The translations under genes were made by a program, and so were the position numbers. Positions 12,500 through 42,620 of a stretch of 46,493 nucleotides of DNA are shown here, piece by piece. Position 1 is the stretch's first letter. Every line of letters begins with the position of its first letter. Location of the stretch: positions 1 through 46,493 of the forward strand of contig NZ_NHSJ01000053.1 in assembly GCF_002937075.1 (NCBI RefSeq), written 5' to 3'. The notes under the pieces are model-generated. The model ran no database searches and had not been told where the DNA came from. It was given only the letters and a program-made list of their open reading frames with translations. The stretch comes from Rhodoblastus sphagnicola (GTDB lineage: Bacteria; Pseudomonadota; Alphaproteobacteria; Rhizobiales; Beijerinckiaceae).

Positions 12500-12512
12500 C
12501 GCGACCGCTTTT

Positions 12513-17900: not shown

Positions 17901-17958
17901 GGGTCGGGCCTTTCAGCAGATTGTCTTTGGCGCCGGCCCGACGGGGCCGGCCGGGAGA

Positions 17959-20546: not shown

Positions 20547-20569
20547 CTGGACCGGACAATCAATTCAAG

Positions 20570-22977: not shown

Positions 22978-23103
22978 TTCGCTCCCCGGCCGCCCTGCGG
23001 GCGCGCGGCAACATCTTCCGCCATGGCGATCGTCCACGCCGAGCCATGAGCGGAGTTCCACGCGATCGCGGCGTCCCGGCGGAGCGCCCGATCGACTCGT
23101 GTT

Positions 23104-26470: not shown

Positions 26471-26472
26471 GG

Positions 26473-27453: not shown

Positions 27454-27454
27454 C

Positions 27455-29596
27455 TCAGGCGTCGCCGGCATGGCGTTCCCGGACCGGCGCGTCGCAAGAG
27501 CCCACAAGAGCCGCCTCGATGGCGAAGGTCGCGGCGGTCACCGCCTCAAGCTCGGCGACCGGGATCGGCGCCGCGCCCTCGCGCGCCGCCGCCAGGAACG
27601 CCGCGACCAGCGCCGCTTGCCCCTTGTCCTGAGCGCTTTTCACGACGCTGGTCTTGCCGCCGCGCGTGACCGACAGTCGGCGGAAGTCGTCGAGCTGGAT
27701 GACGCGGCCCGCCGCGAACACTTCGATCATTTCCTTGGGAAGACTCGGATCGCCGAGGGAAGAATAGACGATCGCGCCCGTCGAACCGTCGGCGAAGCGC
27801 AGGATGATCGACACGGCGTCGTCGTGGCCGCGCGCGGCGACGGCGGTCGCTTCAATCGGCAAGGCGCCGCACAAGAAAGTCATGGCGTCGACGAAGTGAC
27901 AGACCTCGCCGACGATGCGGCCGCCGCCCTCGCTGCGCTGGATCCAGCTGTCGCCGGGGATTTCGCCGGCGTTGACCCGATAGAGCATGACGAGGGGGCC
28001 TGAGCGCGGCTCCAGCGCCGCCTTGGCCTTGACCAGAAGCGGCGCGAAGCGGCGGTTGAATCCGACCGTCAGAACGCCCGACGCGTCTTCCGCCGCCGCA
28101 AGGACCTCGGCGAGGCCATCGGCGTCGATCGCGAGCGGCTTTTCGCAAAACACATGCTTGCCGGCGGCCAGCGCCTGCGCCGCGAGCGCGGCATGGGTGT
28201 CGTGCCGCGTGGCGATCACCACAATGTCGGTGTCGGGATCAGACAGCGCCGCGGCGGGATCTGTCGCGATCGCGGCGAAGCCGTATTTGTCGCCGGCGTG
28301 GCCGGCGCTGACGCCGGTCGCGGTGACCACAGAAGTGAGCCTGACGCCGCCCGCCCTCAGGAAAGCCGGAAGCAGAACGCTCTTGGCGTAATTGCCGAGG
28401 CCGACAAAAGCCACGCCCGCGCCCGCCGACGTCCGCGCCGGCGCCGTGACGCGCGCGATGCTGCGCTCCATGTGCGCGGCGGCGTCTTCAGGATAGGTGA
28501 GCAGAACGGCGAGATAGGGCTCGGCGCTTTCCAGCAGCGCGTAGGCCTTTTCGGCTTCGCCAATCGGAAAGCGATGGGTCACAAGTTTCTTTGGCGTGAC
28601 CTTGCCCTCCGCGACCAGCGCCAGGAACGCCTCCATGTTGCGCTGTTCGGTCCAGCGCACGTAGGACAACGGATAATCATGCCCGCCCTGCTCGTAATCG
28701 GGATCGTGGCGGCCGGGGCCATAGGACATTGACAGCTTGAGGTCGAGTTCGCGCTTGTAGAATGGCTCGCGGTCAATGGTCATGCCCACGAGCCCGACCA
28801 CCACGATCCGACCTTTCTGGCGGCTGATCTCAGCCGCCTGGTTGATCGGCTCGTTGGAGCTGGTGGAGGCGGTCAGGATCACCGCGTCGGCGCCATATCC
28901 ACCGGTGAAACCCGACACGACCACGGGCAGATCCGACGAGACCGCGAGATCGGCGCCCATGTCCTTGGCGAGCGCGACGCGGGCGGGATTGGGATCGAAC
29001 CCCAGCACGCGGCAACCATTGGCCTTGAGAAGCTGAACCGTCAGCAGCCCGATCAAGCCGAGCCCCATCACGACAATGCACTCCCCGAGCGTGGGGGCAG
29101 CCTGTCGCACGCCCTGCAGCGCGATCGCGCCCAGCGTGACGAAGCTCGCATCTTCGTCGTCGACCCCCTCCGGGATGGGCGCGCACAGGTTTTTCGGAAC
29201 GGCGTTGATCTCGGCGTGATTGGCGAGGCCCGCGCCGGCGCAAGCGATCCGCCCGCCGACGACGTGGCCCGGCGCCGCGCGCCCGATCTCGATGATCTCT
29301 CCCGCGAGGCTGTAGCCCAGCGGGATCGGCGTGTCGAGCTTGGCGAACACCTTCTCGATGGTCGGCTTCAACCCGTCCTTGCGCACATTGCGAAGGACGC
29401 GGCGGACAAGGTCCGGACGCGCCATGGCCTTGCCGGCGAGCGAGGCCTTGGCGAGATCCATGAGCTGTTTCTCGGTGCCCGCCGAGATCAGGGAGACGCG
29501 CGTCGCCACCAGCAGGCTTCCCGCGCCCAGGCGGGGCGCCGGCACATCGGCGACCTTGAGTTCGCCTGTGCGATAACTTTGTACGACTTGCTTCAC
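27455..29596 (-). CDS. Bi-domain oxidoreductase: MDR/ADH-like domain fused to Gfo/Idh/MocA domain
   Basis: 713 residues. The N-terminal half is a medium-chain dehydrogenase fold (LGYSLAGEIIEIG, Rossmann VVMGLGLIGLLTVQLL). The catalytic zinc Cys is missing (SLISAGTEKQ where CG-D is usual) and there is no four-Cys structural zinc loop. The C-terminal half from about residue 390 is Gfo/Idh/MocA (VAFVGLGNYAKSVLLPAF, CEKPLAID, GFNRRFAP, GEVCHFVDAM). Such fusions accompany heparinase genes in polysaccharide loci; substrate unknown. GTG 29596 overlaps the heparinase stop (GTGA) and has GGAG 4-5 nt upstream, excluding the longer frame. Confidence 0.93.
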   Translation of the reverse strand: MKQVVQSYRTGELKVADVPAPRLGAGSLLVATRVSLISAGTEKQLMDLAKASLAGKAMARPDLVRRVLRNVRKDGLKPTIEKVFAKLDTPIPLGYSLAGEIIEIGRAAPGHVVGGRIACAGAGLANHAEINAVPKNLCAPIPEGVDDEDASFVTLGAIALQGVRQAAPTLGECIVVMGLGLIGLLTVQLLKANGCRVLGFDPNPARVALAKDMGADLAVSSDLPVVVSGFTGGYGADAVILTASTSSNEPINQAAEISRQKGRIVVVGLVGMTIDREPFYKRELDLKLSMSYGPGRHDPDYEQGGHDYPLSYVRWTEQRNMEAFLALVAEGKVTPKKLVTHRFPIGEAEKAYALLESAEPYLAVLLTYPEDAAAHMERSIARVTAPARTSAGAGVAFVGLGNYAKSVLLPAFLRAGGVRLTSVVTATGVSAGHAGDKYGFAAIATDPAAALSDPDTDIVVIATRHDTHAALAAQALAAGKHVFCEKPLAIDADGLAEVLAAAEDASGVLTVGFNRRFAPLLVKAKAALEPRSGPLVMLYRVNAGEIPGDSWIQRSEGGGRIVGEVCHFVDAMTFLCGALPIEATAVAARGHDDAVSIILRFADGSTGAIVYSSLGDPSLPKEMIEVFAAGRVIQLDDFRRLSVTRGGKTSVVKSAQDKGQAALVAAFLAAAREGAAPIPVAELEAVTAATFAIEAALVGSCDAPVRERHAGDA

Positions 29597-31278
29597 AGGA
29601 TCTCCAATTGCGTCGTGAGTGGGGTGTCGCGCGGCGCATAGGCCACGGACAGCCGCAGGGTCGTCAATTCGCATCCCATGTCCGGCCACCAGACCGCGGG
29701 CGCGACAGCGATCGGCCTGTTGCAGCGGAGCATCGCCCGCGCGCCGCGACATTCAAGACTTGCCGCGCCGTCTTGAACGCTCGCCCTGACATCGGGATGA
29801 AGCAGAAAACCTATGTGCGCGGGGGCGAAAAGCTCCCCTTCGACCCGATCGAGGATTCGCACGGATCGCGCGTCCGCCTCGAAGCGGCGGACGTGAACCG
29901 GCCCGCCTGGAAGGCGCCTGAAACCGTCATGACTGCCCTCGAGACAGAAGCCGTCGGCGCGACGCGCGTAATCGCGCAGCGTCACATTGGGACGGCGCCC
30001 GCAACGGAACGAGCCGAAGAAATCGGCCTGGTCTGTCCCCTCGATGCAAAGCGTGTTGTGGCTGGCGGCGGACCGGGCGCGCCGGCGCTTCTGGCCGGCG
30101 AAATATTCGAACACGCCCTGGTCGACAAGGATGCGCCGGCCGTCGACCGACCACTCGAAAGACAGCACGTCGGCGTGTCCATGCGCCGGGAGATCGTCCG
30201 GCGCGATGCGGCCGCAATCGACGACCAGATAATGCCGCTTCGTCCTCATGCCGAAATAGCCGGCGTCCCTCAGCGCGAACACCCGCCGTCGCTCGGGCGA
30301 GCGCCCGGTCAAGGCCGCATGGGCTTCGAGGCATTCATCCGGCGCATAGGCCATGGTGAGGCCGGAATCGTTGAACAGCGTCGGCCCGCCGTCGGGGTGC
30401 GCGAGATCGGCGGTCGCCCGCGCCATGCGGTCCAGCGCCTGATCGAGCCGGCCGTCCAGAGGATCTTCGCCGAGCGCATGCCGGCATTCCAGCAAATCAG
30501 CAAAGACTTGCGCATGGTAGGAAGCCGAGCGCTCGTTGTGCATGCCGTCCGGCAGGATCTGGCGCTTGAGTTCGCGCGCCAGCAGGTCGAGACCCGTCCG
30601 CCGCCAGCGCTCCGCCTCGCGGTTGGCGAAATAGGCCGAAGCCCAGATCAAGGCCTTGATGTTCTTGATGAGATGATTGCCGCCGAGATCGGTCTCGAGA
30701 TTGCGCTCCAGGAAACGGATCTGCGCGACGACGCTCGCTTCAACGCTGTCGCGCAGCGACTTGGGCGCGCGCGCGCCGCGTCGATGAAGCTCCTGCATCA
30801 GCACCACGACGCGCAGCGACAGCGCATAGCTGTTCCAGCTGTCGCGCCAGGCGCCTTTGCGCGTTTGCGGATTGCCGGCGATCCAGTCCGCCACGATCCG
30901 GCGCCAGAGATTGTCGTCCGCGCCTTCGAGATATTCCAGATAGTGCAGGTTCATCCGCCACAGCTGATCCGCCGGCGCCGGCGATGGCGCCGACCAATCG
31001 ATCGACTGCGCCGGCATGGTTATGGCGCGATTGAGGAAGGTGAAGCGCAGATCGCCGCCCTCCGTCGCGACGCAAGAACGACGCGCGGCGAACAGCGGGG
31101 CCGGCGGGGCGGATGCGCGCGGCGGCAGAGGCCTTGGCCGGCCGGGACGGCGCCACAGCCGATCGCGAACCTGCCGGCGGATGGCGAGTTCGACGCGACG
31201 CGCAAGCTTGGGTAAGGGCATGCGCCGCGCGAATTCGAACAGGCGCGACGCGCGCTCAAGCGTGAACATCATGATCAC
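29593..31278 (-). CDS. Heparinase II/III family protein
   Basis: 561 residues. The N-terminal alpha/alpha-toroid domain (WRMNLHYLEYL, WRDSWNSYALSLR, DLGGNHLIKNIKAL, GMHNERSASYHAQ) is followed by a C-terminal beta-sandwich with AHGHADVLSFEW and SAASHNTLCIEG, the conserved histidines of heparinase II/III lyases. It would cleave or edit a uronic-acid-containing polymer. No signal peptide is visible (MIMMFTLERASRLFEFARRM is amphipathic), so location is unclear. GTG 31278 overlaps the previous stop; ATG 31272 is an alternative. Translationally coupled to the bi-domain oxidoreductase. Confidence 0.93.
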   Translation of the reverse strand: MIMMFTLERASRLFEFARRMPLPKLARRVELAIRRQVRDRLWRRPGRPRPLPPRASAPPAPLFAARRSCVATEGGDLRFTFLNRAITMPAQSIDWSAPSPAPADQLWRMNLHYLEYLEGADDNLWRRIVADWIAGNPQTRKGAWRDSWNSYALSLRVVVLMQELHRRGARAPKSLRDSVEASVVAQIRFLERNLETDLGGNHLIKNIKALIWASAYFANREAERWRRTGLDLLARELKRQILPDGMHNERSASYHAQVFADLLECRHALGEDPLDGRLDQALDRMARATADLAHPDGGPTLFNDSGLTMAYAPDECLEAHAALTGRSPERRRVFALRDAGYFGMRTKRHYLVVDCGRIAPDDLPAHGHADVLSFEWSVDGRRILVDQGVFEYFAGQKRRRARSAASHNTLCIEGTDQADFFGSFRCGRRPNVTLRDYARRADGFCLEGSHDGFRRLPGGPVHVRRFEADARSVRILDRVEGELFAPAHIGFLLHPDVRASVQDGAASLECRGARAMLRCNRPIAVAPAVWWPDMGCELTTLRLSVAYAPRDTPLTTQLEIL

Positions 31279-32537
31279 GCCCGCAGCTCTGCGCCGTCCG
31301 GCTTCGCGCCCTTGGCCGCAACGGCGGCGTCGAGCGCCTCGATATAGCGTCGCGCCAGCCGCTCGCGATCGAAATGCGCGCGCACATAAGCGCCGCCCCG
31401 CCGACCAAGCGCGCGCGCAAAATTTGCGTCATCGCGCAAACGCACGACGGCGGCCGCCAAATCCGCCGCGCTTTCCGGCGCAATCGCCAGGCCGGCGCCA
31501 GCGTCCTCGACCAGCGCCTTCGCCTCGCCGTCAACGCCGAGCACAATCGGAACCTCCATGGCCATCGCCTCGAAGGTCTTGGAGGGGAGAACCTTGAGAA
31601 AGGTTTCGCTGCGCTTGAGCAGAATGAGGCTGGCGTCGGTCGCCGCCCAGATGTCCGGCATTCGCGCCTTCGGCAATTGCCCGAGCATCACGACATTTGC
31701 GAGCCGCTCGCTGGCGACCCGCGCCGCGAGGCGACCATGATCGGCGCCGTCGCCCACCATCAGGAAGGCTATTCCGGAATCGTCCTTCAGCGCCGCCGCC
31801 GCATCCAGCAGCGTGTCGAGACCATGCGCCATCCCATGCGTGCCGACATAGGCCGCGACGAAACGGCCCTCCAGTCCGAATTCGCGCTTGACCGCCGCCG
31901 CACAGGAGCCGCGCTGGAACAAGGCGAGATCGACGCCATTCTTGATCACGACGATCTTGCCTCGATCCCCGCAGCGTTCGTCGATGTGAGGGACGAATGC
32001 GTCGGTCAAGGACACGATCCGGTCGGCGTTGCGATAGGCGAGGCGTTCGAGCCATTCGAGCACGCGGATCACGGGCCCCTTGCGCATGGCGCCGACGGTC
32101 ACGATGCTTTCCGGCCACAGGTCCCGGATCTCCAACACCCAGGGACGGCGACGCAGTCGGGCCGCGATCATTCCGGCCAGGCCGCAAAAGAATTGCGGCG
32201 AGGTCGAGACGTAAACGTCGGGCCGCGGCAAACGAAACGCGGCGTGGACCGCCGTCAGCATATAGGACAGGTAATTGAGAATTCGTCGCGAAAACCCCGC
32301 ATTCGCGGCGAGATAGGTCCAGACCCGCACCACCTTGACGCCGTCCGCGGTTTCGACCTGAAACACCTTGTTGCGATAGCCGGGATAAAGCTCGCCCCTG
32401 GGGTGGTTGGGCGCCGAAGTGATGACCGTGACCTCGTGGCCCGCGCGCGCCCACGCGCGACAATGCTCCGAGGTCCGCGACGCCGGCGCGTTGACCTCCG
32501 GCGGATAGTAATGGCTGAAGAACACAAGGCGAGTCAC
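31275..32537 (-). CDS. Glycosyltransferase family 4, WbuB-like
   Basis: 420 residues. Opens TRLVFFSHYYPPEVNAPASR, then WVLEIRDLWPESIVTVGAM, IVVIKNGVDLALF, FVAAYVGTHGMAHGLDTLL and LPSKTFEAMAMEVPIV, a set typical of WbuB-type fucosamine/N-acetylamino-sugar transferases in O-antigen loci. GTG 32537 overlaps the epimerase stop (GTGA), so the longer upstream frame is not used. Placement directly after the HexNAc epimerase and dehydrogenase suggests it uses their product. Confidence 0.9.
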   Translation of the reverse strand: MTRLVFFSHYYPPEVNAPASRTSEHCRAWARAGHEVTVITSAPNHPRGELYPGYRNKVFQVETADGVKVVRVWTYLAANAGFSRRILNYLSYMLTAVHAAFRLPRPDVYVSTSPQFFCGLAGMIAARLRRRPWVLEIRDLWPESIVTVGAMRKGPVIRVLEWLERLAYRNADRIVSLTDAFVPHIDERCGDRGKIVVIKNGVDLALFQRGSCAAAVKREFGLEGRFVAAYVGTHGMAHGLDTLLDAAAALKDDSGIAFLMVGDGADHGRLAARVASERLANVVMLGQLPKARMPDIWAATDASLILLKRSETFLKVLPSKTFEAMAMEVPIVLGVDGEAKALVEDAGAGLAIAPESAADLAAAVVRLRDDANFARALGRRGGAYVRAHFDRERLARRYIEALDAAVAAKGAKPDGAELRA

Positions 32538-33685
32538 TTGGATTTCGCCCTGTCGGTCAGATAGTCGCCGATGCGCGCGCTCACGCGCTCCGCGGCGCGT
32601 CCGTCCCACAGTTCGGGCGTGCGCCCGCGCTTGCCGCCGTTCTCCAGGACGTCCATCACGGCGTTCTTGAGCGCGACCGTCGACAAGCCGACGAGCGTGT
32701 TGGTGCCCTGCGTGATCGTGATCGGCCGCTCGGTGCTGGCCCGCGCCGTAAGGCACGGCACGCCGAGCGCCGTCGTCTCCTCCTGGACGCCGCCACTGTC
32801 GGTAATGACCAGACGCGCGGACTTCATCAGGCTGATGACCTGAAGATAGGGCAGCGGCGGCGTCGTGAGAATAAGCCGGTTCTCAAGCAGCCGCGCGAGA
32901 CCGTTCTCCGCGATGCGCGCGCGCGTGCGGGGATGGACGGCAAAGACGAGCGGCAGACGCGCGCTGATCTCCGCGAGAGTCTCCAGCAACTCGGAGAGCC
33001 GCGCGGGGTCGTCGACATTGGACGGCCGGTGCAGAGTCACAAGTCCGAACCCTCTGGACATGGCTTCCGCGCGGAATGCCAAGGCGCCGTCATGCGCTGC
33101 GAGCGTCGCCTCCGCGCTTGGCGCCCGGACGAGCGAGGCCAGCAGGGAGTCGATCATCACATTGCCGACGAAATGGATCCGATCGCGCGGAATGCCTTCG
33201 CGCAGCAAGGTCTCCTCGGCCTCGCGCTCGGTTGTCAGCAGAAGATCCGAAAGCCCGTCGGTGACGAAGCGGTTGACCTCCTCGGGCATGGTCCAGTCGC
33301 CGCTGCGCAGGCCCGCCTCGACATGGCAGAGCGGAATCAGCAGCTTCGCCGCCACCAAACCGGCCGCCAGCGTCGAGTTGACGTCACCGACCACCAGGAG
33401 CATGTCCGGCCTCTCCGCCAGCAACACCGGTTCTAGTCCGATCATGATCTGCGCGGTCTGCGCGATTCCGCTTCCGGAGCCCACGCCGAGGTCAATGTCC
33501 GGCTCGGGAATTTGCAGCTCGTTGAAGAAAACTTCGCTCATGGCGCGGTCGTAGTGCTGCCCCGTATGGATCAATCGGGCGCTGAATCCTCCCGCCTTGA
33601 GCGCGCGCAGGATCGGCGCGATTTTCACGAAATTCGGACGCGCGCCGACGATGCAGTCGACGCGCCAAGCGGGGGGCGCATTCAT
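32534..33685 (-). CDS. wecB: UDP-N-acetylglucosamine 2-epimerase (non-hydrolysing)
   Basis: 383 residues. Makes UDP-ManNAc from UDP-GlcNAc, or a related uronate epimerisation (WbpI-like). Motifs: VGARPNFVKIAPI, HTGQHYDRAMS, GDVNSTLAAGLVAAK, CHVEAGLRSGDWTMPEEVNR, GNVMIDSL, LHRPSNVD and TDSGGVQEETTALG. Full family length. ATG 33685 overlaps the dehydrogenase stop (ATGA). Paired with a UDP-HexNAc dehydrogenase, it would provide a ManNAc-type uronic acid. Confidence 0.93.
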   Translation of the reverse strand: MNAPPAWRVDCIVGARPNFVKIAPILRALKAGGFSARLIHTGQHYDRAMSEVFFNELQIPEPDIDLGVGSGSGIAQTAQIMIGLEPVLLAERPDMLLVVGDVNSTLAAGLVAAKLLIPLCHVEAGLRSGDWTMPEEVNRFVTDGLSDLLLTTEREAEETLLREGIPRDRIHFVGNVMIDSLLASLVRAPSAEATLAAHDGALAFRAEAMSRGFGLVTLHRPSNVDDPARLSELLETLAEISARLPLVFAVHPRTRARIAENGLARLLENRLILTTPPLPYLQVISLMKSARLVITDSGGVQEETTALGVPCLTARASTERPITITQGTNTLVGLSTVALKNAVMDVLENGGKRGRTPELWDGRAAERVSARIGDYLTDRAKSK

Positions 33686-35028
33686 GCCAGGACAATCTTG
33701 GACGATTGAACGCCAAACCGGCGGCAGGCATTGCGCGTGTCAACGACGAGCGGCGCGCAATCGACGATCGCGCGATAGTCCACCGTGTCGTGATCGGTCA
33801 CGATCAGCGTTGCGTCATAGCCGCCGGCGAGGGCCGCCGACCACGGCAGACTGCGACGGCCCGAAAGCGCCGCGTGTTCGCGCGTGGGCGGAATGAGCGA
33901 CACGAAAGGATCGTAGAATTCGGTCTTGGCGCCGCGCGCCTCAACCAGTTCGATCAGCTTCAGGGCCGGGCTTTCCCGCATGTCGTCAACATTCTTCTTG
34001 TAGGCGACTCCCAAGACCAGAACGCGGGCGCCGTTCAATCCCCGCTCCGAATGCATGTCGAGCGCCTGAGCCAGGCGGTTGACGACATGTTGCGGCATGG
34101 CCGAATTGATTTGCCCGGCGAGTTCGATGAACCGGGTCGCCATGCCATATTCCCGGGCCTTCCAGGTGAGATAGAATGGATCGATCGGGATGCAGTGACC
34201 GCCAAGCCCCGGACCGGGATAAAACGGCATGAAGCCAAACGGCTTCGTCTTGGCCGCATCAATGACTTCCCAAACGTCAACGCCCATCGGCTCGTAGACC
34301 AGCTTGAGTTCGTTGACGAGCGCGATATTGACCGCGCGAAAGATGTTCTCGGTCAATTTGACGGCTTCGGCGACACGCGACGAGGACACCTGCACGGTGC
34401 GCTCGACAAAGGCGTCATAGACCGCAGTGACCGCGGCCAACGACAATTCGTCGTCGGCGCCGACAACCTTCGGTATTGTCGCCGAACTGAAGCGTTCATT
34501 TCCCGGATCCTCCCGCTCGGGCGAGAACGCGAGCAGAATATCCTCGCCGACTTTCAACCCGCCTTGCTCGAGGATGGGACGCACCACATCCTCCGTCGTT
34601 CCCGGATAGGTCGTGCTCTCAAGGATGACAATCTGACCGGGCCGCAGAATCTCTGCGATCATCTCGGCGGTTTTCACGACATAACTGAGGTCGGGATCGA
34701 GATGCGCCGTCAAGGGCGTGGGGACGCAGATCAGCAGGGCGTCCGCCTCGCTCAAAAGAGCGAGGTCGCTCGTCGCCTGAAAGCGGCCGCTTTCGACGGC
34801 GGCCGTCACCGCCGCCGCGTCAATGTGCTTGAGATAGCTCTCATTGCGTCGCAACGCTTCGGGTTTGGCCTTGTCAATATCGAAGCCGATCACGTCGAGG
34901 CCAGCGCGCGCGGCGGCGAGGCAAATCGGCAATCCGACATAGCCAAGCCCGATCACGCCTAGGCGCCCGCGCTTTTCTCTGAACAGGGCCGGAAGGTCGG
35001 CGGCTCTCGTCTGCACAAGCGTGTCCAT
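33682..35028 (-). CDS. UDP-HexNAc 6-dehydrogenase (UDP-glucose/GDP-mannose dehydrogenase family)
   Basis: 448 residues. A four-electron oxidation turns the C6 hydroxyl into a carboxylate with two NAD+. NAD site IGLGYVGLP (residues 26-34), ILESTTYPGTTEDVV, SPEREDPGN, KLTENIFRAVNIALVNEL, and the catalytic Cys279 in GGHCIPIDPFYLTWK. The C-terminal UDP-binding domain has LGVAYKKNVDDMRESPAL. The GGHCIPIDPFYLTWKA form fits WbpA/WecC-type enzymes acting on UDP-GlcNAc or UDP-ManNAc rather than UDP-Glc. ATG 35028 is chosen; TTG 35043 is possible. Confidence 0.92.
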   Translation of the reverse strand: MDTLVQTRAADLPALFREKRGRLGVIGLGYVGLPICLAAARAGLDVIGFDIDKAKPEALRRNESYLKHIDAAAVTAAVESGRFQATSDLALLSEADALLICVPTPLTAHLDPDLSYVVKTAEMIAEILRPGQIVILESTTYPGTTEDVVRPILEQGGLKVGEDILLAFSPEREDPGNERFSSATIPKVVGADDELSLAAVTAVYDAFVERTVQVSSSRVAEAVKLTENIFRAVNIALVNELKLVYEPMGVDVWEVIDAAKTKPFGFMPFYPGPGLGGHCIPIDPFYLTWKAREYGMATRFIELAGQINSAMPQHVVNRLAQALDMHSERGLNGARVLVLGVAYKKNVDDMRESPALKLIELVEARGAKTEFYDPFVSLIPPTREHAALSGRRSLPWSAALAGGYDATLIVTDHDTVDYRAIVDCAPLVVDTRNACRRFGVQSSKIVLA

Positions 35029-35267
35029 TTCCAAAATTCCCAACCTGGATTGACGACTGAAGTGAAGCTGGTGGCGTTTTCAGGCGAACGGGCTCAAGCG
35101 CGCCTGAGCCGCGCTGGCGGCGCTGTCGCTGGACGCGCCGCAGAGACCTTGTTCGCCAAATCGGAGTGAGCGGCCGTCTGAACGCGGCCCGTTATTCGCC
35201 GGGATCGCAATGCTGACGCGTCCGCGGGAGGCGTCGGTTGTTCCCTCTTATGGCGCCGCGCCCAGGA
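35029..35267 (-). other. Intergenic spacer inside the operon
   Basis: 239 bp between asnB and the dehydrogenase gene, the longest gap within the main run. I see no gene and no clear hairpin followed by a T-run. A local promoter is possible but not identifiable. Confidence 0.4.
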
Positions 35268-37100
35268 TCAGGCGCAGGCCATGATGATTTGCGCCCAGAT
35301 GCGCGCCCAAGGCATGCTGGCCCGGCGAATGGGCGGCGCGATCTTTTCTTGCGACATGCGCTTCTGCCAATGCGCGATCGGCGTGCTGAATCCGGTCTTG
35401 GGCCGACGCTTCAATACCTCGCCCAAGGGCTGCGTCGGCGCTTCCGCGAGCAGGCTCTTGTTTCGCGTGATTTGCTCGGACGCCGTCACAGACGCCAATT
35501 GGCGAAGCAGCGTTGTGTCGACCAAAGGGGTCCTGACCTCAAGGGAATGCGCCATGCTCGCCCAGTCCGTGTCACGCAGGAGCTGGTTCTTCAGGTACAG
35601 CCCGGATTCGAGCGCTGAGATTCGATCCGCGGCCGCCTTGGGGCTCGGGTCGCTCTCTCTTGCGATCAGCTGAAGCGGCCGCAGTCGACGCAAACCGGCG
35701 GCCACGACGTCGGGCGGGAGCAATCCCGGCAGCTCCCAAGGCATGAACAGGCCGCGCCGCAACAAATATGCGCCCGCGTAGTCGCCGCCATATTCCAACA
35801 TTCCCGCCGCTTTCGGATGAACCCCAAGCCTGTTGACGACGGGCGCGCCGACGACTCGCGCGATTCGACCGAGCATTGGCACGCGCGATGGCCCATGCAG
35901 CCGGCGCACCCATCTCGGAATGTCGCGAAATGACGGGTAGCCGCCAAACAGCTCGTCGCCCCCCAAACCCGAAATGGCGACTTTCAAGCCCAGTTCGTTT
36001 GCGGCCTTGGACACGAACCACGTGTTCACGCCATCGACGGATGGCTGGTCCATATTGTCAAGGATCTCCGGCAGATCCTTCAGAAACTCCGCTTCGCCAA
36101 CGACCCGAACCGCATGTTTCACATCATAGGCTTTGGCGACTTCCGCGGCGAGCAGGCTTTCGTCGTCGGTGGTCTTCAGGAAATCGTCAAACGTCAGCGT
36201 GACCGCCATGATCTCCTGCTGACCCGCGTCGCGCATCAGACCAACCAGCGACGAGGAGTCGATTCCGGCGGAAAGGAACGCGCCGACGGGCACGTCCGCG
36301 ACCAAGTGATGGCGCACGCTGTCGAGGAGGGCGGATCGAATGTCTTCGACGCCATGCTCGCGACTGCGCCTCGCTCCATGCGCCGACTGCATTTCGGCGT
36401 CGTGGTAGACCTTTGCGACGGAGAAATATTGCCTGGGTTCGGCGGCGCTCATCCGTTCCACGACCATCGCCGATCCGGCGGGCAAAGCGCTGATATCCCG
36501 GTAGCAGGTGAACGGTTCGGGCACGCTGCCGAACAGGTAGAATCCGACCTGGCCTGCGGGCTCCGGCTCGCCGGAAATGGCGCCGCCGGCGAGCAGCGCC
36601 TTGACCTGGCTCGCGAAGCGAAAAGTCCCGCCCGTCGCGGCATAGTAGAGCGGCTTGACGCCATAGGGGTCGCGCGCGAGGAATAGACTGTTCGCCCGGG
36701 AGTCCCAGATCGCGAAGGCAAACATGCCTCGCAGATCATGCACCATCTCGGCGCCCTTCAGCGCATAAAGATGCAACAGCACTTCCGTGTCCGAACGCCC
36801 GCGAAACACGCAGCCCTTCGCGATCAAATCGTTTCGGATCGCCTGGTAATTGTAGATCTCGCCATTGTAGGTGATCGCCAGATTGCCATCGGCGCTCGTC
36901 ATCGGCTGAGCGCCGGCTTTAGAAAGATCGATGATCGCCAACCGCCTGTGCCCCAAGCCGACGCGGCCATCGGCGGATACCCACGCACCGGCCCCGTCGG
37001 GACCACGCCTGGCCATGCGCTCGCGCGTCCGCAGCAATTCGGCCCGGTCGATCGGCGGAGCTGCTTGGCTGTAAGCAAAAATGCCGTTGATCCCGCACAT
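35268..37100 (-). CDS. asnB: Glutamine-dependent asparagine synthetase-like amidotransferase
   Basis: 610 residues. The glutaminase nucleophile is Cys2 (MCGINGIFAY), with RRGPDGAG, GHRRLAIIDLS and YNGEIYNYQ. The synthetase domain has the PP-loop as LSAGIDSSSL (277-283; Ala replaces the commoner Gly), SGLGGDELFGGYPSF, and EVRTPLVDTTLL. Start fixed by Cys2. In EPS/O-antigen loci such proteins (for example WbpS-like) amidate uronic acids. Here it lies next to a HexNAc dehydrogenase and epimerase, which suggests an amidated hexosaminuronic acid. A role in peptidoglycan or aspartate amidation is less likely by context. Confidence 0.92.
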   Translation of the reverse strand: MCGINGIFAYSQAAPPIDRAELLRTRERMARRGPDGAGAWVSADGRVGLGHRRLAIIDLSKAGAQPMTSADGNLAITYNGEIYNYQAIRNDLIAKGCVFRGRSDTEVLLHLYALKGAEMVHDLRGMFAFAIWDSRANSLFLARDPYGVKPLYYAATGGTFRFASQVKALLAGGAISGEPEPAGQVGFYLFGSVPEPFTCYRDISALPAGSAMVVERMSAAEPRQYFSVAKVYHDAEMQSAHGARRSREHGVEDIRSALLDSVRHHLVADVPVGAFLSAGIDSSSLVGLMRDAGQQEIMAVTLTFDDFLKTTDDESLLAAEVAKAYDVKHAVRVVGEAEFLKDLPEILDNMDQPSVDGVNTWFVSKAANELGLKVAISGLGGDELFGGYPSFRDIPRWVRRLHGPSRVPMLGRIARVVGAPVVNRLGVHPKAAGMLEYGGDYAGAYLLRRGLFMPWELPGLLPPDVVAAGLRRLRPLQLIARESDPSPKAAADRISALESGLYLKNQLLRDTDWASMAHSLEVRTPLVDTTLLRQLASVTASEQITRNKSLLAEAPTQPLGEVLKRRPKTGFSTPIAHWQKRMSQEKIAPPIRRASMPWARIWAQIIMACA

Positions 37101-37271
37101 GAAGACCGACTCGAACTGATGGTCGCGCGATTGCCACGCCTATTCGTTCCGGAGAACGCGCATAATCGAGGCGTCCAAACAGGCCTGAGACACGCAGTGA
37201 GATCCGCAGCTCCGCAAGTTCGCGGAACGGCATTTCCCTCCTGTCCTGGTTCAAACCGCAGAATGACATGT

Positions 37272-37287
37272 GATAGAACGTTCTATC
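37272..37287. repeat. 16-bp perfect palindrome at a gene end
   Basis: GATAGAACGTTCTATC is self-complementary and contains the TAG stop of the 228-residue protein gene. As RNA it would fold with a 6-bp stem and ACGT loop, but no T-run follows on the minus strand. It could be a regulator-binding site ahead of asnB or a weak pause/stability hairpin. A second inverted pair, CGTTC-n4-GAACG, lies near 37145-37158. Confidence 0.6.
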
Positions 37288-37969
37288 GGGTCTCGGCCGG
37301 CCCGGGCTTGACAGGCGCCGCCGTCTCGTCGCCGCCGTCCGCGCCGGCCTCGGGCGACAGGTCCAGGGCCTTGATGATGGGATCGGCCGGCTTGCCCACC
37401 AACAGCAATGCCGCAAGCATTTCTCCGCGCGACGGGTCCGGGACGAGCGCGATCTGGTCGGCGAGCGCGAGGCGCTCCCCGGGGCCAATCGCGCTCCAGC
37501 CGCCCACGAGATCGTTGATCAGCGTCCGCCGCACATCCGGCGGCAGGCGTTCCCAATAGGGAAGCCCGAACGCCGCGCGGCCCGCCATCAAGCGCGCTTC
37601 ATTGGGCCCCGTCATGGCCGACATGGCCAGGGCGCTGGAAACGTCCTCCATTGGCGCGCCGACCTTCGCGCGCGCGATGGCCAGATCGAGCCAGGCGCCG
37701 CTCGCCAAGGGCGTCGAGCCCAGCAGGTTCTGCAAGGCGTCGATGCGCGCGGCGGTGGAGGCCGAGGCCGCCAGAGCAAGCCTTTGCGCGAGCGCCGCGA
37801 CCGGCGTCTGCGCCATGAAAGGCTCCAGGCGCGCTTTCGTGTCTGGCGGGTTCGTCGACTGCCGCGCCCAACCGAATTGAAGCGTCGAGGCCGCCCAGGA
37901 CATGGTCAAAGCGCACAGGCCAATGACCACAAAAGCGGTCCAGAAACGCGCTTCGCGAATATTGATCAT
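37283..37969 (-). CDS. Unknown single-pass membrane protein of the EPS operon
   Basis: 228 residues. One N-terminal hydrophobic segment (residues about 9-28, FWTAFVVIGLCALTMSWAA) followed by a periplasmic, helix-rich domain with Ala/Leu repeats reminiscent of TPR-like packing (LAQRLALAASAS, SGAWLDLAIARAKVG, GPNEARLMAGRAAFGLPYW). The C-terminal tail is Pro/Gly/Glu-rich. Not recognised as a named family. ATG 37969 overlaps the kinase stop (ATGA), so it is made together with the chain-length kinase and may modulate it or the polymerase. Confidence 0.8.
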   Translation of the reverse strand: MINIREARFWTAFVVIGLCALTMSWAASTLQFGWARQSTNPPDTKARLEPFMAQTPVAALAQRLALAASASTAARIDALQNLLGSTPLASGAWLDLAIARAKVGAPMEDVSSALAMSAMTGPNEARLMAGRAAFGLPYWERLPPDVRRTLINDLVGGWSAIGPGERLALADQIALVPDPSRGEMLAALLLVGKPADPIIKALDLSPEAGADGGDETAAPVKPGPAETR

Positions 37970-40230
37970 TCGTTATAGTATTTCTTGTAGTAACGCCCGC
38001 CGTAATAATAGCTATAGGCGTATTTGCCATATTTTTGCGCCTGAGCGTCGACCACCTGATTGAACACCAGTCCGGCGACTTTTTTATTCCCTGAGAGGCG
38101 CTGGATCGAATGAGCGATCATTTCGCGGCCCGTCGAAGCCCAGCGCACGATGAAAACGACCTTGTCGACCATTTGCGACACAATCAGCGGATCGACCACT
38201 GGGCCGACCGGCGGGGTGTCGATCACGACCATGTCGAATTTTGCGCGCAGAATGTCCATGAGCGCCTTCAGCTTGTTCGACCCGAGGAGATCCGGCGGGT
38301 TCTGCGTCTTCGATCCCGCGGGCAGCACCCACAGTTTCAGATCCTCGTCATAAACGATGATATCGGTGATCGCGCCGTCGCCGATCAGATAATCGGTCAG
38401 GCCCTGCGCCTTGTCGAGTTTGAAATAGCGCGACACCGAGGGATGACGGAGATCGCCGTCGATGATGAGAACGCGCTGACCGGATTGCGCGGCGGAACTG
38501 CCAAGCGTCATGCAGATCGTCGTCTTGCCTTCGCCCGGTATGGTCGACGTGCATTGAATGATCCGGGGCGGGTGATCGACGTCGCTCATCTGAATGGCGC
38601 TGCGCAGCGACCGGACGGCTTCGGAGAAACGCGACAGCGGCTTGACAAAAGGATATTGCGGTATCGACACGATCTGTCCGTCGGCGGTGAGATCACGCGC
38701 CTCCATTTTCGAGATCGACGCCATCAGCGGCAGGTCCAGCAGTTCTTCCACCTGGTGCGGCGTTGTGAAGCCGGCGTTGAGAATCTCGATCAGATAGGCG
38801 CCGCCAACGCCCGCCAGCAGCCCCAAAAAGGCGGCCACGAGCATGACATTTCCGGTCTTCGGCCACGACTGCGCCGAGGGCGCCAGCGCCGGCGAAATCA
38901 CGCGCGCCTCACGCGCCTCGAACGTCGACTGCTCCTCGGTGATTTTGGCCCGCTGCAAGAAGTTTTCAAACAGGCTCTTGTTGACCGCCGCGGTGCGTTC
39001 GAGTTCGCGCAAAGTGATGGCCTTGGCGTTGTCGATGTCGTTTTGCCCGGTGGCTTCGCGCAAGGTTCTCTCGACCGCGTCCTCGCGCGCCTCGGCCAGC
39101 TCGTACTCATTCTTGATGTTGTTGGTGAGCCGCGCGATTTCGGCGTTGATGGCGCGATGAATATCCGCGAGTTGCGCGCGCAGATTGACGACCGCCGGGT
39201 AGCGGTCGCTGTAGCGCGCCCGCAGTTCGGCCTCCTGGCGCGAGACGTCATTTTCCTGCTTCCGCAGATCGGCGATCGCGCCGGAGTTCATCACATCGGG
39301 CAAAGCGGAAATGTTGCCGCCGCTCGCCTGGATTCGCTGCAGCAATTCGAGGCGCGCCTTTTTCTCGCCGGCTTCGGCGCGCGCCGCGACCAGGCGTCCG
39401 TTGAGTTGCGCAATCTGGTCCTGGGTCAAGCTGACATTTGCGGCGTTCGACGGCACGAGATTATTGTCGACGCGAAATTGCGTGACCGCCTCCTCGGAGG
39501 CCCGCAATTGCTGGCGCAATTCGACAAGACGCTCGCTCAGCCAGGTCGAGGCGCGCTTGGCGGCTTCGAAGCGCGCATCGAGCTTGTCGACGACATAGGC
39601 GTCGGCGACCGCATTCGCCAGGCGCGCGGCCCTGCCGGCATCGGCGGAGGTGATGGAGACATTGAGCGCGAGGGCCTGGCCAGCCCGCGCGACGTTCAAC
39701 GCGCCTTTCAGCCGCTCAATCGTGGCGATGACCTCGGCCGAGGCCTGATCGCTCCCGACCTCGCTTCGGCTGGATGCCTTTTTCGCGGCGGCGTCCGCAT
39801 CGGGCTTGCCGCCGAAAAAGCTTTTGATCGAGGCGAGCATTCCAGCGCCCGGCGCCATTGGGCTGACGCCGAATTCAGGATCGGAGACGAGTTTCTCCTT
39901 GACGACGACCCGCCGCAACAGCGCGCTCGACCGGATCACCGCGATCTGGCTTTCGATAGTCGTTATGTCGAACGGCATTTCGATGGGCGCCATGTCCTGC
40001 GCCAGCGGCTTGCTCCTGTTGGGTTCGAGAAGGAGCAGGGCGTTCGCGGTATAGAGCGGCGTCTGCCGCGACAATTGAATGGCGGCAAGCAGGATGGCCA
40101 AGGCCAAGACGCCGAGAATGAATTTCCATTGCCGCCAGGCGAAATTCAGAGCCTCGCGAAAATCGAAGCCGCCGCTCTCGGCGACGATCGCTGCGGTTTC
40201 AAGGACAGGCGTTTTGGGGCGATCAAGCAT
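37966..40230 (-). CDS. Wzc/GumC-type polysaccharide co-polymerase with BY-kinase domain
   Basis: 754 residues. A Wzz domain lies between membrane helices at about 37-52 and 462-484, with a long coiled-coil periplasmic region (220-445). The cytoplasmic bacterial tyrosine kinase has Walker A IPGEGKTT (564-571), Walker A' VLIIDGDLRHPS (587-598) and Walker B MVVIDTPP (667-674). The tail from 734 to 752 has ten tyrosines, the autophosphorylation cluster. It controls chain length and export. ATG 40230 is chosen as the normal start before the first helix; the open frame upstream runs antisense to nothing known and overlaps the neighbour. No Wzb-type phosphatase gene is adjacent. Confidence 0.95.
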   Translation of the reverse strand: MLDRPKTPVLETAAIVAESGGFDFREALNFAWRQWKFILGVLALAILLAAIQLSRQTPLYTANALLLLEPNRSKPLAQDMAPIEMPFDITTIESQIAVIRSSALLRRVVVKEKLVSDPEFGVSPMAPGAGMLASIKSFFGGKPDADAAAKKASSRSEVGSDQASAEVIATIERLKGALNVARAGQALALNVSITSADAGRAARLANAVADAYVVDKLDARFEAAKRASTWLSERLVELRQQLRASEEAVTQFRVDNNLVPSNAANVSLTQDQIAQLNGRLVAARAEAGEKKARLELLQRIQASGGNISALPDVMNSGAIADLRKQENDVSRQEAELRARYSDRYPAVVNLRAQLADIHRAINAEIARLTNNIKNEYELAEAREDAVERTLREATGQNDIDNAKAITLRELERTAAVNKSLFENFLQRAKITEEQSTFEAREARVISPALAPSAQSWPKTGNVMLVAAFLGLLAGVGGAYLIEILNAGFTTPHQVEELLDLPLMASISKMEARDLTADGQIVSIPQYPFVKPLSRFSEAVRSLRSAIQMSDVDHPPRIIQCTSTIPGEGKTTICMTLGSSAAQSGQRVLIIDGDLRHPSVSRYFKLDKAQGLTDYLIGDGAITDIIVYDEDLKLWVLPAGSKTQNPPDLLGSNKLKALMDILRAKFDMVVIDTPPVGPVVDPLIVSQMVDKVVFIVRWASTGREMIAHSIQRLSGNKKVAGLVFNQVVDAQAQKYGKYAYSYYYGGRYYKKYYNE

Positions 40231-40265
40231 CAAGTTTTTCCGCTTGGGAAACAGATCCGGCGCGC

Positions 40266-41732
40266 TCAGTCGGAAGCGAGACGGCGCGAACTTTCCGACT
40301 GCGCCACGCCGGCGCCAAGAATGGCCATGAAGGTCAGCGCCACCGCTTCGATCTGCAAGCTGAAATCGACCATGGCGTGGGCGCCGATCAACAGCGAGAC
40401 GCTCGCGGCGACGATCGGCGCGGTGGCGTCGCGATGGCGCTGGACAGCTCCCCAGGCGCACCGCCAGACCAGCAGGGCGAGCGCCAGGATCAAGGCGCCG
40501 CCGAACGCAATTCCGAGGCCTTGCAAGGTCTCCAGATAGGTGTTGTGGGCCATGTCCCACATGCCCCACACGCTGATGGATTGGTCGCGATAGAGCGGAA
40601 AGATGTCGGCAAACGTTCCATAACCAAACCCGATGAACAGGGCGTCGTTAATGGAGCCAATGACGATGGCGCAGACCGCGAGGCGCGAGGCGTCGGTAAG
40701 GCCGGTTTCGGAAATGCGCCCGACGATCTTGTCGCCGAACAGCAGGAAGCCGCCAAGCACCGCCACCGCGAGGAAAATGACCATGTCGATCTGCTGTCCG
40801 TCGCGCCGCCCGCTGCGCGCGAAAGTCATGAGCAACAGCGTGAATATCGCCAGCACAGCCGCCAGCACGCCGCCGCGCGACACGGTCCCCAGCAGCGCAA
40901 CCAGGATGACCAGTCCGGCGCCGATCAGCGTCCAGCCGCTCTGGCCGGTCGCCTCGATCAGTCTGGCGAGACGATAGCTTTTCAGCGCCGGATCGCCCGG
41001 CGCCTCGCGCCGATAGAACCGCAAGATCAGCGCGACCGCGCCGACAAGGCCGATTCCGGCGTAGGTCGCAAAAGTGTTGCGGTTGACGAAGGTCGCGCGG
41101 ATCGCGCCGCCGCCCGCAAGGTCGCTGAAGGGAAGGGCGCCGCCCGCGAACACCATCATGACAATGCCGAGTAGCGAATAGGCCGCGCAAATGGCGACGA
41201 CGGCCTGGATCAGGATCAGGGCGCGTCGGGGCGACCGGCACAGTTGCATCGCCAGCCAGAGAACGCTGGCGTCGGTCAACAGACGCATCAATGCGAGGGC
41301 GCTCGCCTGCGGATTGACCGATATGGCCGCATTCAACGGCGTCTTGAGCGCGTCGCCCGCGATGAGCCAGATCGGATGCGCAAATCCCGGCGGAATGACG
41401 GTGGACATTTGGACGGAGATCCAAAAGACCACGGCGGCGAACAGGATGAGCGGGGCCAGTATTTGCTTGGCGGCGACCGGATGTTTGCGTTCGCGGATCA
41501 GCAGGGAGATCTCATAGACCACGGTCAGCCCGGGAAACCAGACACCGTTTACGCCCCAGGCGAAAGGACGATCTCCGCCGAGCCAAAGCGGCGCCCAGGC
41601 GAGACCGAGAATGAGACCGGCCAGCAGCAGCGCCTCGAGGGGTTCGTCGCGCCACAGGACAATCCACGTGGACGGGGTCGCCGGATCGCGGCGCAGGCGC
41701 GGCGAGGCGGGATCGAATGCGCTGATGGCCAA
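40266..41732 (-). CDS. O-antigen ligase/polymerase-like (Wzy_C) membrane protein
   Basis: About 488 residues with ten or more membrane helices. The periplasmic signature ATFVNRNTFATYAGIG (about 215-230) and GTVSRGGVLAA match the O-antigen ligase/Wzy_C family (NRN and SRGG motifs), and GFGYGTFADIFPLYR plus MAHNTYLETLQGLGI with the conserved HN-YLE are typical. It could polymerise the EPS. The start is uncertain: TTG 41732, after AGAAGAGA, keeps it clear of the two upstream hairpin elements; ATG 41810 or 41834 would place one or both elements in the coding part. First gene downstream of the antiterminator and the tandem elements. Confidence 0.88.
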   Translation of the reverse strand: MAISAFDPASPRLRRDPATPSTWIVLWRDEPLEALLLAGLILGLAWAPLWLGGDRPFAWGVNGVWFPGLTVVYEISLLIRERKHPVAAKQILAPLILFAAVVFWISVQMSTVIPPGFAHPIWLIAGDALKTPLNAAISVNPQASALALMRLLTDASVLWLAMQLCRSPRRALILIQAVVAICAAYSLLGIVMMVFAGGALPFSDLAGGGAIRATFVNRNTFATYAGIGLVGAVALILRFYRREAPGDPALKSYRLARLIEATGQSGWTLIGAGLVILVALLGTVSRGGVLAAVLAIFTLLLMTFARSGRRDGQQIDMVIFLAVAVLGGFLLFGDKIVGRISETGLTDASRLAVCAIVIGSINDALFIGFGYGTFADIFPLYRDQSISVWGMWDMAHNTYLETLQGLGIAFGGALILALALLVWRCAWGAVQRHRDATAPIVAASVSLLIGAHAMVDFSLQIEAVALTFMAILGAGVAQSESSRRLASD

Positions 41733-41760
41733 AGGTCTCTTCTGATGTTGTCGCGCATGG

Positions 41761-41800
41761 CCACGCTGCCGCAGTTTGGGTGAAACGAACCGTCTCACCC
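41761..41800 (-). promoter_or_regulatory. JUMPstart/ops-like element, proximal copy
   Basis: On the minus strand: hairpin arms GGGTGAGACG and CGTTTCACCC with GTT loop (41800-41778), then AAAC, then TGCGGCAGCGTGG (41773-41761). One arm pair is G-T, a wobble only in minus-strand RNA. The core resembles E. coli ops GGCGGTAGCGTG. Same unit as 41831-41870, exactly 70 bp apart. Function inferred. Confidence 0.6.
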
Positions 41801-41830
41801 ATCCGCGCATGCGATGCGTCCTTGCGACGC

Positions 41831-41870
41831 CCATGCTGCCGCCATTTGGGTGAAACGGAGCGTTTCACCC
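41831..41870 (-). promoter_or_regulatory. JUMPstart/ops-like element, distal copy
   Basis: On the minus strand: hairpin arms GGGTGAAACG and CGTTTCACCC, perfectly complementary over 10 bp with CTC loop (41870-41848), then AAAT, then GGCGGCAGCATGG (41843-41831). Hairpin followed by an ops-like core is the order of the enterobacterial JUMPstart element. It lies 37 bp after the antiterminator gene on the same strand. Confidence 0.6.
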
Positions 41871-41885
41871 ATGCGATTGACGAAA

Positions 41886-41902
41886 ACGCGCTGGCAGCGC
41901 GT
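41886..41902 (-). terminator. Terminator-like hairpin after the antiterminator gene
   Basis: On the minus strand ACGCGCT-GCC-AGCGCGT, a perfect 7-bp stem with 3-nt loop, followed by a short T-run (the last stem T plus TTT, then CG). It begins 6 nt after the TAA stop of the NusG-like gene. The short T-run makes it a weak or conditional terminator. Confidence 0.5.
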
Positions 41903-41907
41903 GGTGT

Positions 41908-42432
41908 TTATGCCGCTTCCAAAGCGCTGCGTTCGACCGTCGCCGGCACTTGGCCGCCGAGCATGTCGAGAAGGACGCGAACGCGTCCATTGGCGTCGAG
42001 CCTGACCAGTTCGCCCATCAATTCGGCGAGCGGGCCCTGCACAATGCGCACGGTTTGGCCGACGACGAGATCACGATCGAAGCGGCAGGCGCCATCCTCG
42101 TCGCGATAGTCGAGAAGTCTTTCCACGATGCCGAAGGGCAGGGGCGTGGGAGACGTTTGCGTCATCACGAGCCGGGCGACGCCAATCGTGCCGTTGATCG
42201 ACCGCCAGCGGTCGCGCTGAAGATCGAGCGCGACGAAGAGATAACCGGGAAACAGAGCCGCCCTGACAAGGCGGGTCTTGCGCGCATGCCGCACCGTTTT
42301 AGCGATGACGGGGAGAAAGGTTCGAAACTGCTGCTCGCTCAGGTGATACAGCGCGCTGGTCTCGCGCTTCGCCAGGGCCTGAACGACATACCATCGCTCG
42401 CCCTCGGCAAGTTCGAACGGGTCGAGGCGCAT
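41908..42432 (-). CDS. RfaH/NusG-type transcription antiterminator
   Basis: 174 residues. The NGN domain starts RWYVVQALAKRETSALYHL; the central RLVRAALFPGYLFVALDL matches the FPGY(L/V)FV core of NusG/RfaH proteins; after a linker the KOW domain reads VVGQTVRIVQGPLAELMGEL. Specialised NusG paralogs bind RNA polymerase at an ops site and let it read through long polysaccharide operons. ATG 42432 has GGAG 5 nt upstream and gives a normal length; ATG 42459 is an alternative. It lies just before the tandem JUMPstart/ops-like elements and the 33-kb EPS operon. A housekeeping NusG is unlikely: it is not beside secE or ribosomal genes. Confidence 0.92.
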   Translation of the reverse strand: MRLDPFELAEGERWYVVQALAKRETSALYHLSEQQFRTFLPVIAKTVRHARKTRLVRAALFPGYLFVALDLQRDRWRSINGTIGVARLVMTQTSPTPLPFGIVERLLDYRDEDGACRFDRDLVVGQTVRIVQGPLAELMGELVRLDANGRVRVLLDMLGGQVPATVERSALEAA

Positions 42433-42620
42433 TGGCGCTCCAGTCGCGCCTTCAGTCATGGCGACGCTGCGCGGATGCCGACAAGGACCGATCGCGCCGC
42501 CGCCAAACAAGGAAACTGAACCCGTGGTCTACCAAGGTCATTGCTATCTCCAGAATAAAGTCAAAGCCAACGCGCCGGCCCCTCGGGGGCTGGTTGTGTT
42601 CCTGCCGAAGTATTCGGAGT
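42433..42620 (-). promoter_or_regulatory. Leader of the antiterminator gene
   Basis: 188 bp. On the minus strand, GCCCCCGAGGGGC (near 42579-42591) can form a GC-rich hairpin without a T-run, perhaps ending the upstream outer-membrane gene transcript. Downstream, TTGACT (near 42558) might serve as a -35 box, but no good -10 box follows. A plus-strand frame here is not considered real. Confidence 0.3.

Follow-up and report, generated by a model that had tools for sequence, protein, structure and literature searches.

A candidate JUMPstart/ops-type element at RfaH-type NusG paralog genes and polysaccharide genes of Rhodoblastus sphagnicola and other Alphaproteobacteria

Between the gene of an RfaH-type NusG paralog and a gene of the Wzy_C family, the window analysed here (a stretch of 46,493 nucleotides from contig NZ_NHSJ01000053.1 of Rhodoblastus sphagnicola) carries two tandem units on the minus strand, each made of a hairpin followed by a short core that resembles E. 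coli ops. Judging from its conservation beside such paralogs and ahead of polysaccharide genes, and by analogy with E. coli RfaH, the element is very probably an alphaproteobacterial JUMPstart/ops-type recruitment site for the paralog, and a sequence-only reading of the same stretch, which had proposed such a site for the adjacent gene, finds support in this conservation. In the enterobacterial JUMPstart, a hairpin is followed by ops, where RfaH loads onto RNA polymerase. According to a survey of 2020, Alphaproteobacteria hold 18% of rfaH genes, and the element offers a concrete and searchable candidate site for a fair share of them. No earlier report of this alphaproteobacterial element was found in the literature searched, in which few subscription papers were covered.

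Anatomy of the Tandem Element

The two units are 84% identical over 45 nt and start 70 nt from each other (Table 1), which agrees with the 70-bp spacing read earlier from the letters, the unit being taken here as 45 nt long. Each is laid out as a 10-bp stem, a 3-nt loop, AAAY and then KGCGGCAGCRTGG. Copy 1 has a perfect stem of 10 bp (GGGTGAAACG/CGTTTCACCC) with the loop CTC, while the stem of copy 2 (GGGTGAGACG/CGTTTCACCC, loop GTT) contains a single change that leaves a G-U pair in minus-strand RNA alone, just as had been described, and an outer T-A pair extends both helices to 11 pairs. Each of the cores (GGCGGCAGCATGG and TGCGGCAGCGTGG) matches E. coli ops (GGCGGTAGCGTG) at 10 of 12 positions. 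Base 6 is changed from T to C in both copies and the remaining mismatch lies at base 10 in copy 1 and at base 1 in copy 2; the C3:G8 mini-hairpin, T11 and G12 of ops are retained in both (GCGGCAGC-R-TG), so that the nearness to ops, the T to C change in the loop and the preserved GC-n4-GC mini-hairpin had all been recognized correctly. The covariance model R1, built from 22 elements (alignment A1) and hence partly from both copies, gives scores of 47.9 bits for copy 1 and 51.2 bits for copy 2.

Table 1. Location of the element and of neighbouring features in the window.
Feature	Position	Strand	Remarks
Element copy 1	41831..41875	-	hairpin 41848-41870, AAAT spacer, ops-like core GGCGGCAGCATGG 41831-41843
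Element copy 2	41761..41805	-	hairpin with one G-U 41778-41800, AAAC spacer, core TGCGGCAGCGTGG 41761-41773
RfaH-type NusG paralog gene	41908..42459	-	ATG taken at 42459; frame open from 42510
GC-rich hairpin, possible 3' end or weak terminator	41887..41903	-	TTTT follows; read from sequence
First downstream gene, Wzy_C/O-antigen ligase family	40266..41732	-	presumed start
Co-directional polysaccharide gene run, ~30 kb	11726..41834	-	Pfam; two frames without hit

The stem pattern occurs in the window solely at the two element sites (0 expected in shuffled sequences). The core alone is common, with 47 occurrences at up to two mismatches in the GC-rich window (34.6 expected) and 124 occurrences of the 13-mer at up to one mismatch in the whole genome, and core-only searches were rejected as uninformative because such sequences are too frequent in GC-rich DNA. 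This frequency would fit a REP-like or mobile repeat, or a chance similarity of GC-rich DNA, but the combination of hairpin and core is found in the genome in the two window copies alone (all other matches have E values of at least 0.04), and its tight link to one protein family and to polysaccharide genes, described below, makes such an origin barely plausible; the scattered repeat that had been named in advance as speaking against a recruitment site was not seen.

The arms of the two copies (41777-41801 and 41847-41871) are 88% complementary over 25 nt, and for this reason the full leader RNA folds copy with copy (MFE -80.5 kcal/mol, z -6.2). The leader could accordingly be pictured as an attenuator that switches structures through pairing of one copy's hairpin with the other's, while the paralog acts elsewhere. 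No U tract follows the stems, however, and two strong copies within 1 kb were found in no genome besides that of R. sphagnicola among the matches listed, so that an attenuator would leave the conserved single element unexplained, and we consider it very unlikely. The copy-copy fold of the whole leader was not adopted since single copies are the norm. For the same reason, that no other genome listed has a close tandem, the duplication is not a family trait: the element had been called duplicated, which holds for this genome and not for the family. At locus L043, a partial second element (4031-4076, 28.1 bits) lies about 2.6 kb past the first, with its hairpin intact and its core cut to GGCG.

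The RfaH-Type Paralog and the Polysaccharide Genes

The NusG family of the genome was found to consist of two genes, nusG and the window paralog, the latter with a Pfam NusG match of 5e-18. Copy 1 begins 32 nt past the stop codon of the paralog, a distance that had been given as 40 bp. The best NCBIfam match of the protein is RfaH (TIGR01955, 103.2 bits), below the cut-off of 144.5 bits; this cut-off was reached in none of the 289 genomes of our class scan, and the lower score is therefore a property of the lineage. The score to the LoaP model (54.8 bits) is likewise below its cut-off of 125. In an AF2 model based on 38 aligned relatives (pLDDT 87.3), the N-domain is NusG-like and the KOW/C-domain consists of beta strands, although a second fold may be missed with an alignment of relatives only. 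Among the residues that read ops in E. coli RfaH, H20 alone is retained and K10, R23 and R73 are replaced by L, E and I, respectively, and the full K10/H20/R23/R73 set is absent from the window protein and from most relatives.

Directly past the stop codon of the paralog, and upstream of both elements, we noticed a GC-rich hairpin followed by TTTT, which a terminator scan reports solely in the plus-strand reading. A promoter scan found nothing.

The genes downstream of the element encode a Wzy_C protein, a Wzz/BY-kinase, an amidotransferase, a UDP-sugar dehydrogenase, an epimerase, glycosyltransferases, a heparinase-like protein, acyltransferases, a DegT family protein and a flippase. The largest gap among the frames listed for this run is 1203 nt, and the run presumably forms a single operon. 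The longest Wzy_C frame begins at ATG 41834, within the core of copy 1, and TTG 41732, which follows AGAAGAG, appears from the sequence to be the likelier start. Since the core (AGC-ATG-G) holds an ATG in the Wzy_C frame, automatic annotation may begin the gene inside the element.

Conservation beside Paralogs and ahead of Polysaccharide Genes

In many relatives, a hairpin followed by AAY or GAY and KGCGGTAGCRTGG is located 50-160 nt 3' of the paralog gene, the hairpin usually being GGGTGAA/TTCACCC and running into GCGGTAGC. A genome scan with the paralog yielded 80 loci, mostly from alphaproteobacteria, 79 of which were usable for counting the core without regard to the hairpin. At 24 of these 79 loci, sense GCGGTAGC occurs no more than 200 nt past the paralog gene (0.53 expected), and antisense GCGGTAGC does so at none of the 79; at the other 55, a sense core is missing from this place. 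Conservation next to orthologous NusG-like genes, on which the earlier proposal had been made to depend, is thus present at 24 of 79 loci. The 38 nt before the 24 near-paralog cores also fold better than those before 39 other GCGGTAGC sites of the same loci (median z -2.48 vs -0.38; one-sided Mann-Whitney p 3e-6), and CACCC stands ahead of 18 of the 24 near-paralog cores as compared to one of the 39 others, which is itself an element. At three Erythrobacter-type loci (L036, L038 and L039), a strong hairpin of unrelated sequence occupies the same place.

Some loci show further arrangements. In the three Erythrobacter-type loci the stem of 12-14 bp takes the GC of the core into its pairing, and the TG is preceded by one additional base (GCGGTAGCCGTG). 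At L052, L062, L065, L073, L083 and L086, which are Rhodobacteraceae/Minwuia-type loci with paralogs carrying a KPN motif, GCGGTAGC is found on the opposite strand, some 250-275 nt before the paralog match on its upstream side, several of these sites having by eye a GC-rich inverted repeat ahead of them, as if the target were divergent. L103 has a divergent arrangement, in which the paralog is directed away from an element roughly 0.8 kb distant and is encoded on the other strand, and L111 is similar.

Element and paralog also co-occur across genomes, with paralogs counted from a threshold of 86 bits that was set after a gap between 86.3 and 72.9 bits had been seen. In the class scan (289 genomes), 21 genomes contain an R1 match of at least 28 bits, and the paralog is encoded in 20 of these, as compared to 63 genomes with a paralog overall (Fisher p 7e-14); at a threshold of at least 26 bits, the paralog is present in 26 of 29 element genomes, and 43 of the 63 paralog genomes have no element of at least 28 bits. 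The family scan (119 genomes) found the paralog in 15 of 16 element genomes and in 17 genomes in total (Fisher 5e-16), and 12 of the 20 places with at least 28 bits, including the two window copies, are directly downstream of a paralog. The expectation that copies would reside in genomes with this NusG paralog agrees with most element genomes of both scans; in G227 and G754, which have an element, the paralog was not detected. R1 further matched in 14 of 398 genomes of a phylum scan (E<=1e-4) and in 41 of 372 genomes of a larger family scan (E<=2e-5).

To these come 37 copies (35 distinct ones plus L155 and L163) with no same-strand paralog within 400 nt upstream, a set that leaves out weaker or coreless matches (e.g., L158-L160, L164, L165, L136-L139) and was not thinned for relatedness. 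The downstream gene, for which the longest sense frame with a start no more than 700 nt away was taken and scanned with Pfam, is a clear surface-polysaccharide gene in 23 of the 37: a UDP-sugar dehydrogenase in six, Wzy_C in four, Poly_export in three, and in one case each NeuB, Polysacc_synt_2, NTP_transferase, RmlD, UDP-GlcNAc 2-epimerase, GDP_Man_Dehyd/epimerase, CpsB/CapC, a sugar transferase, a polysaccharide deacetylase and a GT4 glycosyltransferase. Six are ambiguous (two ABC transporters, GFO_IDH, two FkbM methyltransferases and one other methyltransferase), seven have no Pfam hit downstream and one, at a contig end, has no frame. Even at sites without the paralog gene beside them, the element therefore marks genes for polysaccharides. 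The stricter statement that copies would lie only upstream of EPS operons holds for most of these copies, with 23 clear cases as against six that are ambiguous and eight without Pfam hit or frame.

Preservation of the Hairpin

The stem was counted in alignment A3, which holds 49 matches from 47 chosen loci, 48 of them distinct, and was fitted to a model that already contains the stem. In the 48 distinct elements, 80.0% of the stem cells are paired (72.6 +- 0.9 after shuffling), and the covariation of 0.236 exceeds that of shuffled alignments (0.128 +- 0.010) and of slid versions (<=0.070). At columns 16/36, A-U occurs 24 times and G-U 20 times, with two elements unpaired and two gapped. Pairs with double changes stay at the level of the shuffles (5 vs 3.9; 87/500), and RNAalifold on A3 returned just two GC pairs of the core and no upstream hairpin. 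Folding of single sequences recovers the stem in each of the 48 rows with a core, its 3' end varying from 11 nt before GCGG to within GCGG; the helix thus shifts register between genomes, and column-based tests suffer from this. The covariance analysis proposed for the hairpin has accordingly a divided outcome, with pairing and covariation above shuffled alignments on the one hand, and double changes at shuffle level and an RNAalifold consensus without the stem on the other.

Given that copy 1 is a perfect inverted repeat in DNA, the palindrome GGGTGAAACG-N3-CGTTTCACCC might also be the operator of a DNA-binding regulator. This appears very unlikely, as the best-sampled pair varies on one side only and retains a G-U in the sense strand alone, the stem stands on the sense side of the ops-like core at near-fixed spacing in the aligned set (partly by construction), and the arms change register between genomes.

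The two arms of the hairpin vary differently. In A3, TCACCC of the 3' arm is nearly invariant (at least 46 of 49 at each position), and variation of the 5' arm at one position mostly keeps pairing (A 24, G 21, others 2, gaps 2). This could be accounted for by a bipartite recognition, in which the paralog binds the nascent RNA hairpin, as LoaP does, and the ops-like core adds a pause and a DNA contact: the 3' arm is more invariant than base pairing needs, the 5' arm varies mostly in a pairing-preserving way at that position, and LoaP provides a precedent, as it binds an RNA hairpin that is described as required for antitermination (PMC12691694). However, the elements were found with a model that holds CACCC, so that the invariance is partly due to selection (the unselected figure is 18 of the 24 near-paralog cores), and the hairpins of the Erythrobacter-type loci have a different sequence. 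We regard a bipartite recognition as possible, with the odds rather against it.

Comparison with Known Systems and Possible Mode of Action

The element shares its architecture with JUMPstart (RF01707) and is, by the models, a different family. In both, a stem-loop lies directly 5' of GCGGTAGC and ahead of polysaccharide genes, a likeness of architecture and not of sequence: the alphaproteobacterial stem differs in sequence and length, and the window element is in tandem and has C at base 6. The RF01707 stem is followed by 13 unpaired bases ending in ops, and the distance from stem to U11 is 11 nt in the E. coli JUMPstart as compared to about 13 nt from the upper stem in the window. The E. coli leader scores 61.1 bits with RF01707 and 13.0 bits with R1, whereas RF01707 finds nothing in the window stretch with E values of up to 10 allowed, at which Rfam gave chance matches alone; at the gathering thresholds, Rfam had no match in 10 relative loci, and the RF01707 gathering score of 35 bits was reached in none of four genomes searched. 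JUMPstart was reported for gammaproteobacteria (Weinberg et al., 2010; PMC2864571), and the combination of an ops core with an upstream hairpin is, by our scans, widespread in Alphaproteobacteria as well, with a different hairpin.

The paralog resembles E. coli RfaH in its best NCBIfam model and in having a NusG N-domain plus KOW, and differs from it in three of the four ops-reading side chains and in the position of its gene directly ahead of the presumed target operon; E. coli RfaH is autoinhibited, whereas the AF2 model of the window paralog predicts a beta KOW. In its predicted beta C-domain, the missing ops-reading residues and its gene beside a long operon it is reminiscent of the monomorphic beta-RfaH proteins described in PMC13015549. 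Those tested in that report acted in all ops contexts, while the gene studied here has a conserved ops-like core next to it, an observation of relevance to the view that ops is dispensable for RfaH proteins that are encoded in cis and apparently not autoinhibited. LoaP and its dfn hairpin offer a parallel, in that a NusG paralog works together with a small hairpin of the leader, the latter being described as UNCG-type (PMC12691694), in contrast to the loops CUC and GUU of the window, which are followed by an ops core.

For the recruitment site that we favour, the following course of events can be envisaged. RNA polymerase would move from the paralog gene into the polysaccharide operon, and the hairpin would form in the nascent RNA. 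By analogy with ops, the polymerase might pause at the core, about 13 nt past the upper stem (the predicted U11 pause), where the non-template strand would expose the GC-GGYA-GC mini-hairpin. As E. coli RfaH does at ops, the RfaH-type paralog, whose gene lies upstream, could then dock on the core, exclude NusG and, probably together with the ribosome, keep the polymerase processive over the long operon. The hairpin might limit backtracking or serve as a second contact, and the tandem copies may offer two chances of loading.

Base 6 and the Specificity of the Paralog

In the ops complex of E. coli, T6 is described as flipping into RfaH (PMC5995543), in which the T6 pocket consists mainly of H20, R23, Q24 and R73. 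Of the loop bases of ops, both window copies retain G5 and have C in place of T6. C6 is a minority variant of the element: in A3, base 6 is T in 44 of 49 rows and C in four (the two window copies, L046 and L107), with one row gapped, while the other core bases are nearly constant (C3 49/49, G8 48/49 with one gapped, T11 49/49, G12 47/49). Later scans revealed additional C6 elements, in cis or in trans, in G1120, G1246, G725 and G1173.

In 59 cis paralogs whose element is of the CACC type, residue 23 is acidic in two of three with C6 and in one of 56 with T6. The three cis C6 paralogs have E (window), D (G1246) and L (G1120) at this position, and outside the cis set we find E in G001 (trans C6), A in L046, and V and R in the two paralogs of G725. 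The association of an acidic residue 23 with C6 has a p of 0.005, tied lowest of 763 column/class tests, is post hoc and loses significance upon correction; we keep it as a lead since residue 23 belongs to the lining of the T6 pocket in E. coli RfaH. The altered base specificity that had been proposed for the window paralog and its element is thus weakly supported by the sequences.

More broadly, and tentatively, alphaproteobacterial RfaH paralogs might combine recognition of an RNA hairpin and an ops-like DNA loop, with a joint change of T6 to C and of R23 to an acidic residue in some lineages giving rise to orthogonal pairs; we hold this to be rather improbable. If it were true, both kinds of pairs could possibly reside in one genome, G725, which (L187, L188, L162 and L155) encodes two RfaH-type paralogs with V and R at position 23 and carries both C6 and T6 elements, and thus constitutes a natural case in which to look for orthogonal paralog/element pairs. 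The natural combinations of T6 or C6 with R, E, D, Q or A could serve to test how DNA specificity arises in a NusG paralog. Genome G746 has a second paralog (L189), with E at position 23, at which GCGGCAGC follows a short inverted repeat and is placed not downstream of the gene, but in an open frame ahead of its likely start.
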